Below are positions 49,233 through 49,417 of a stretch of DNA of 64,000 nt, one piece after another. Numbering within the stretch: position 1 is the first letter of the stretch; each line of letters opens with the position of its first letter. Made by a program: the position numbers and the translations under genes. Origin of the DNA: Burkholderia ubonensis subsp. mesacidophila (GTDB taxonomy: Bacteria > Pseudomonadota > Gammaproteobacteria > Burkholderiales > Burkholderiaceae); assembly GCF_002097715.1 (NCBI RefSeq), contig NZ_CP020737.1:3038001-3102000 (forward strand), given 5' to 3'. Below the pieces are notes generated by a model. It was given only the letters and a program-made list of their open reading frames with translations, searched no databases and was not told the DNA's origin.

Positions 49233-49417
49233 CCTGACCAGTACGGTAAAGTCTGAGCGCAGCCAGACATGACCGTGCAGTTTGATCCGCGCTTGGGCGT
49301 GAGAGCCCGTTTCTGAGTACAAAACGCACGGTTGCCGTGCTGGTCTTCCTGAAACCCGAACGGTTACCCGCCCCGATTTGATCGAGAGCGCATGCACAAG
49401 CAAGGGATCTGAAGATC
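49233..49417 (+). ncRNA. Candidate bridge RNA in the IS110 left end
   Basis: The non-coding left end folds as expected for an IS110 guide RNA. A 5' hairpin is GTCTG (49251) / CAGAC (49264). A first loop is closed by CCGTGC (49273-49278) / GCACGG (49326-49331), with inner stem GGGC/GCCC. In it, TTCTGAG (49311-49317) is the exact complement of the right target CTCAGAA including the core CT. A second loop is closed by GGTCTTC (49342) / GAAGATC (49411). It contains ACGGTTAC (49360-49367), identical to the IS right end, and ACAAG (49396-49400), complementary to the left end CTTGT. The left-target guide match is weaker (5 of 7). Boundaries are approximate. Confidence 0.72.

Follow-up and report, generated by a model that had tools for sequence, protein, structure and literature searches.

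The choice of insertion sites by an RNA that is encoded within the mobile element itself has been known since 2024 (PMC11208160, PMC11187229). According to the first of these reports, bridge RNAs can be predicted in 85.7% of IS110s, and the RNA of IS621 consists of a series of three stem-loops with discontiguous pairing of a donor guide. The catalytic residues of the IS621 recombinase, a handshake guide and a promoter at the circle junction are described in PMC11208158. For ISEc21 and elements of the IS1111 type, a seekRNA derived from a non-coding end is reported to find the target and to be re-programmable (PMC11187229). Repeated extragenic targets are also used by the REP-targeting insertion sequences (PMC1525189).

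The element at positions 49221-50395 of the window (the whole analysed stretch of 64,000 nucleotides) is an IS110-group insertion sequence with a predicted bridge RNA at its left end, and is to be seen as a new member with a mechanism that was already described. That it encodes its own bridge RNA, with guides for the target as well as for its own ends, had been proposed in an initial annotation, and we consider this very probable. By analogy with IS621, the excised circle would join the right and left ends and build the promoter from which the bridge RNA is started. One loop of the RNA would then pair with both target strands around a CT core, the other loop would pair with the ends of the element, and the recombinase would exchange strands at the core. 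Expression from a circle, binding of the RNA by the protein, this chemistry and present mobility are expected on the strength of the IS621 work. With ten copies in one genome, seven right guides, 14 element types and readable targets, the family provides a natural test set for the rules that govern bridge RNAs.

Element anatomy and insertion sites

The element resides in a genome of 7.84 Mb (four contigs) and has the following parts outside the RNA.

49213..49218, + strand: left target GCGGTG, in the flank; 3 of 6 pairs with the left target guide
49219..49220, + strand: left CT core; uninterrupted sites have one CT, the element is flanked by CT on each side
49221..50395, + strand: IS110-group insertion sequence, 1,175 bp without the CT core; 10 full copies in its own genome
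49223..49228, + strand: -10-like TATGTT in the left end, partner of TTGACT across the circle junction
49418..50380, + strand: IS110 recombinase of 320 aa with DEDD and Tnp domains (Pfam PF01548, PF02371; phmmer)
50377..50382, + strand: -35-like TTGACT in the right end, sigma-70-like with the -10 only across the circle junction
50396..50397, + strand: right CT core, on the same basis as the left one
50398..50402, + strand: right target CAGAA; adjoins all 10 own-genome copies and is present in uninterrupted sites of 5 of the 10

The ends were set by the uninterrupted orthologous sites of five other copies and by end-to-end alignment of relatives that are 74-81% identical. Both PF01548 and PF02371 are found in the recombinase above the Pfam cut-offs, and the only solved structures that match the 320-aa transposase at E values up to 0.001 are the recombinases of IS621 (8wt6, E 9.6e-41 in phmmer) and ISCro4 (9t56, E 2.4e-37); the likeness to ISCro4 (PDB chain 9t56_A) concerns the homologous recombinase alone. 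Residues D11, E56, D98, D101 and S240 align with the catalytic residues named for IS621 in PMC11208158. The protein thus has the DEDD RuvC-like domain and the Tnp domain with a catalytic serine that characterize the IS110 family. The gene is preceded by 197 bp of non-coding DNA and its stop is followed by 15 bp, an arrangement in which a long left end holds the guides and the RNA structure and the right end is short, as in the IS110 group. Placement of the RNA in a long right end, as in the IS1111 group, does not apply, because the 15 bp on the right leave no room for it. A target-finding RNA from a non-coding end is common to the present element and the seekRNA elements, whereas the IS1111 types have this RNA in the right end and carry subterminal inverted repeats (PMC11187229).

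A putative junction promoter is present as well. The combination of TTGAC(T/A), a spacing of 17 bases and TATGTT is formed only by joined right and left ends. Both TTGAC and TATGTT are kept in 13 of the 14 element types, the spacing having been measured in the window element, and the sole type that differs (G401) has both boxes altered (TCGACT, TATCTT). A junction promoter of such kind was reported for IS621 (PMC11208158).

The search of the own genome (G000) gave 11 matches, including the 10 full copies, five of which are 98-100% and five 87% identical to the window copy; the eleventh (L011), a fragment of 103 bp, was left out here and from the comparisons below. All ten copies have TTCTGAG as right target guide, and all have G-CT on their left and CTCAGAA on their right, while the flanks beyond that differ. 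One of them, L005 (G000:C2:1726056-1727241), is a mosaic, its left end being that of the 87% subfamily and its body that of the 98% subfamily.

Since CTCAGAA follows every full copy in this genome, it might be taken as a piece of the right end of the element, and its match to an internal sequence would then be uninformative about targeting. The orthologous sites make this extremely improbable, short of a traceless loss of an element from all the relatives concerned. The right flanks of nine copies were searched in six related genomes, where a similar flank was found for eight of them and none for L003. For five copies (L004, L006, L007, L008 and L010) there is a relative in which the left flank, a single CTCAGAA and the right flank follow each other without interruption, and the relatives of the element that align end to end carry other bases at this place, in step with their own guides. 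Thus, CTCAGAA belongs to the target, with CT as the shared core. Three further copies were not counted as proof: uninterrupted relatives of the L002 site read TTCAGAA, and for L005 and L009, where the left flank aligns incompletely, the relatives have TTCAGAA and CTCAAAA. In total, 22 of the 40 rows of this comparison read CTCAGAA, and the remaining ones mostly retain TCAGAA with a different base for the core C, chiefly where the left flank is unaligned. At the site of the window copy, the sequence to the right is missing in two relatives without the IS (G025 and G019; L013, L014). By eye, the sequence after GCGCGG (window 49216) continues there at a point that corresponds to about 50868, and one end of the missing stretch adjoins the IS target.

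Guides and structure of the predicted bridge RNA

The RNA would be read from the junction promoter, with a start around 49233-49236 and a 3' end before the start of the transposase gene.

49233..49417, + strand: bridge RNA region; predicted RNA, from covarying structure and guide covariation
49236..49246, + strand: outer helix, 5' strand; pairs with 49335-49345
49251..49268, + strand: 5' hairpin, from fold and alignment; no double-changed pairs
49274..49330, + strand: target-binding loop; lower stem 49274-49281/49324-49330, upper stem 49295-49298/49305-49308
49287..49293, + strand: left target guide CCGCG-CT; best RNA window for left-target covariation (columns 79-83)
49311..49317, + strand: right target guide TTCTG-AG; best RNA window for right-target covariation (column 115)
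49318..49319, + strand: presumed target-loop handshake guide TA, from position and complementarity (donor -1, -2) only
49335..49345, + strand: outer helix, 3' strand; pairs with 49236-49246
49360..49367, + strand: left donor guide ACGGTTAC; matches the right end ACGGTTA-C at 50389-50396
49369..49390, + strand: donor-loop upper stem, 49369-49374/49384-49390; 3 of 6 pairs changed on both sides
49392..49400, + strand: right donor guide AT-gc-ACAAG; complements the left end CTTGTAT
49401..49401, + strand: donor-loop handshake guide C; complements the target -1 G; column 206 is the best single column

Direct reading proved every guide segment that had been named in the initial annotation correct to the base. 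TTCTGAG complements the right target CTCAGAA at 50396-50402, the stem CCGTGC/GCACGG is read at 49273-49278/49326-49331, ACGGTTAC matches the right end, and ACAAG (49396-49400) complements CTTGT of the left end at 49219-49223. The imperfect left pairing is also as described, with CCGCG-CT and CGGTG-CT agreeing at 5 of 7 positions.

The donor guides are complementary to both element ends. Since ACGGTTA of the left donor guide and AT plus ACAAG of the right one are unchanged across the 19 aligned sequences, they provide complementarity but no covariation. The nine RNA bases of the right donor guide span seven DNA bases (AT-gc-ACAAG against CTTGTAT), a discontiguous pattern like that of IS621 (PMC11208160). 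In the presumed target-loop handshake guide, the first base is T in all types and the second is variable.

Folding of the window sequence gave -67 kcal/mol as compared to -57.1 (sd 4.6) for shuffled sequences, 3 of 200 of which were as good, so that the single-sequence fold taken alone is only moderate support. The 5' hairpin and the target loop that had been suggested do appear in it, together with the outer helix. In addition, the left end of the element is base-paired to the right donor guide in this fold, which is expected because guide and donor are complementary.

Stronger evidence comes from the alignment: a structure of 39 pairs in 19 sequences, obtained with RNAalifold and completed by a donor-loop lower stem seen by eye (6 pairs, one double change), has 98.6% of its cells paired, as compared to 27-50% when it is slid along the alignment. 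The two internal loops, proposed earlier from one sequence, have covarying stems: 10 of the 39 pairs are changed on both sides, and 30 double-change cells stand against a shuffled mean of 8.5, with none of 500 shuffles as high. Further pair types by themselves are unexceptional (55 of 500 shuffles as high). The helices of the target loop (3 and 4) have 99% of cells paired and 4 pairs changed on both sides, and the 11 pairs of the outer helix, with 100% of cells paired, include 2 that are double-changed and 7 that are invariant. The 5' hairpin and the target loop may both lie within this 11-bp helix, in contrast to the serial arrangement in IS621 (PMC11208160). A rival fold that lacks the outer helix and has a 7-pair donor stem instead (columns 146-152/216-222) receives about equal support, and the two folds compete for four bases. 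Rfam 15 has no match at the bridge RNA locus. Within the window, RF02836 (Burkholderia RNA 14, Bcj14; 165 bits) at 19504-19676 on the minus strand is alone in reaching the gathering threshold.

Covariation of guides with insertion sites

Relatives of the element were found in 10 of 65 genomes of the genus, 12 of 398 of the family and 4 of 399 of the order, each count including the own genome, as well as among named contigs and on B. arboris replicons, and the full relative elements are 67-81% identical. These relatives place the genome in Burkholderia: G059, a genome of this genus, shares an element fragment together with its flank with L033, a named locus of B. pseudomultivorans. A protein-based scan of genome contigs yielded five loci, two of them full elements, and a search of phages for the element gave no match. 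The covariation set comprised 45 copies whose left and right ends could be read, and these belong to 14 element types. Partial elements (L151, L033/L050, L041/L052, L042/L051, L043-L046, L056, L141) and the partial or distant L035 and L036 were dropped before the permutation test, and so were L146 and L147, which share a flank with other copies in G003.

The right guide fits its target at 7 of 7 positions in 34 copies, at 6 of 7 in 10 copies and at 2 of 7 in one. Over the 5 non-core bases its match is 4.4, as compared to 3.2 after random re-pairing of types; for the left guide the mean is 3.9 of 6 as compared to 2.25, and none of 100,000 re-pairings of the 14 types reached the observed match for left, right or both. 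This result, together with CTCAGAA at all ten own-genome copies, excludes chance. On the left side, each of the positions -1 to -5 exceeds chance (equalled in 18 to 196 of 20,000 re-pairings), unlike -6 and -7. Among the right positions, +4 and +5 carry signal (4 and 1 of 20,000), and +1 to +3 are nearly invariant and have no significant covariation singly. Since only the five bases adjacent to the core carry signal on the left, the weak fit of the left guide in the window is ordinary tolerance. The test set thus shows a strict right side and a left side of about five bases. As compared to IS621, the right target guide including the core is longer (7 bases as against 4, G77-G80), and the left guide has its signal over 5 bases besides the core.

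The initial annotation held that the element appears to carry a readable targeting code of its own, which can be checked at the insertion site. This is borne out: other copies sit at guide-matching targets, and in relatives guides and targets change together. The guide GACTGAG is found with CTCAGTC in 13 of 17 scored copies of G003, G057 and G059, CACTGAG with CTCAGTG in 5 of 5 copies (B. arboris), GCCTGAG with CTCAGGC in 2 of 3, ACCTGAG with CTCAGGT in the single copy of its kind, and GCTTCAG with CTGAAGC in 2 of 2 (relative D98). In MAG2, D97 and D139, also with GACTGAG, CTCAGTC is missed by one base in all 5 copies. The left guide TATGCG of L034 equals its left target TATGCG. A poor left fit is seen in L039, L144 and L096 (1 of 6) and in L007, L032 and L058 (2 of 6), the MAG copy L032 having a misfit on both sides.

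A likeness of guide and target could also result from shared descent of the elements or from a preference of the recombinase, the match being inherited instead of read. The element types are indeed related by descent, CTCA recurs at the right target of most of them, and +1 to +3 have no significant covariation of their own. It is nevertheless most unlikely that this accounts for the data. Relative D98 switched to CTGAAGC along with its guide in both copies, the last two right positions vary in step with the guide, and the left guide and the handshake base switch together with the target as well. Furthermore, the pair TTCTGAG and CTCAGAA recurs in G401, an element of 73% identity from another family.

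Reading of the target by the guides is also favoured by a blind scan, in which a window was slid over all columns of the RNA alignment for the 16 of 19 rows with known targets. The covariation with the left target peaked exactly at the proposed left guide (z 6.6-6.8) and that with the right target exactly at the proposed right guide (z 4.9-6.1), and in neither case did any of 5000 permutations do as well. Among single columns, the best complementarity to target -1 was that of column 206 (z 4.9, 92% agreement, 1 of 5000 permutations as good), followed by column 171 (z 4.1). Column 206 is the base directly after the right donor guide, which is the place of the handshake guide in IS621 (PMC11208158). 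A target G is accompanied by C in this column, a target T by A (D97, D142) and a target C by G (D139, D140), with L032, which has A at target -1, as an exception. The handshake base is thereby supported from natural variation.

Several copies deserve separate mention. L096 (G401) combines a poor left guide match with the right guide and right target of the window element. Five copies (L039, L148, L058, L144 and L032) gain two or more left matches if one extra base is allowed before the core, and the other 40 of 45 fit equally or worse; this is either core slippage or chance. In G003, L039, L048 and L146, as well as L055 and L147, have a left or right flank in common with another copy, a sign either of recombination between copies or of artefacts in the assembly. 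An internally deleted copy in G042 (L041/L052/L137), presumably a dead element, has the guide TTCCGAG at CTCAGAA, one mismatch.

The two D98 copies (L098, L100; G380) are re-targeted to a palindromic repeat, the centre of which, CCGGCTGAAGCC, occurs 12 times in the G380 genome as compared to 3 times for the reversed pattern; three occurrences lie in tandem at a spacing of 42 bases. In this respect D98 resembles the REP-targeting insertion sequences (PMC1525189).

Insertion at stop codons

Since CTCAG reads CTGAG on the other strand, a guide that ends in CTGAG, as it does in 13 of the 14 types, specifies a target that holds C-TGA-G in reverse, and many acceptable sites would consist of the last codon and the stop of a gene. 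For the present element this would be TTC TGA G, a sequence with which porins and other genes end, and an insertion would land directly behind the stop and leave the gene intact.

A copy was scored as located at a stop if the TGA terminates a reading frame that is open over at least 60 codons and has a gene-like GC pattern by codon position. This is the case for 8 of 10 copies in G000, 7 of 7 in G057, 2 of 3 in G654, 3 of 5 in B. arboris, the single copy in G401 and 5 of 11 rows in G003, two of which repeat the flank of another copy. The two copies in G000 that are away from stops include that of the window, and L038, L032 and L034 are not at in-frame stops by the rule. These counts cover the copies other than the seven D copies. 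Matching sites without an element are also often at stops, 22 of 66 in G000 (pattern GCTCAGAA) and 10 of 25 in G057 (pattern CGCTCAGTC), so that a match to the guide is by itself enough to concentrate sites at gene ends. The difference between occupied and unoccupied sites is nevertheless significant in both genomes (one-sided Fisher's exact test, 0.007 in G000 and 0.006 in G057). Only 4 of the 7 copies in G057 match its pattern exactly, and these alone are 4 of 4 at stops (p 0.04).

We give about even chances to the reading that this is a clade of IS110 elements with bridge RNAs programmed for stop codons through C-TGA-G (TTC TGA G), homing to gene ends and inserting directly behind the stop, in which new guides arise with the stop signature mostly kept. 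Survivorship, that is equal insertion at all matching sites followed by loss of gene-internal copies, would explain the excess of occupied over unoccupied sites, and we judge it slightly on the probable side. The 15 of 17 copies at stops are what a loss of gene-breaking copies would give, and the unoccupied sites at stops in G000 and G057 agree with it. It does leave the CTGAG guide in 13 of 14 types unexplained, though shared descent may explain that. Survivorship and stop-programmed guides are compatible.

IS621 targets REP elements (PMC11208160, PMC11208158), in contrast to the C-TGA-G sites, often at gene ends, found here, and unlike the REP-targeting insertion sequences (PMC1525189) the family of the window element has most of its G000 and G057 copies at gene ends. 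A search of open-licence PMC literature gave no prior report of stop-codon targeting by IS110, by which its absence is not proven; the first match for IS110 and stop codons, PMC5658596, concerns other matters as far as its consulted part goes.

If the guide indeed spells a stop codon, this would suggest why a genome can hold ten copies without much harm. A Pfam domain is encoded by every one of the 15 genes whose stops adjoin the copies scored at stop codons in G000 and G057. Three of the eight genes in G000 are porins, and a fourth encodes MipA, which we take to be an outer-membrane protein as well.
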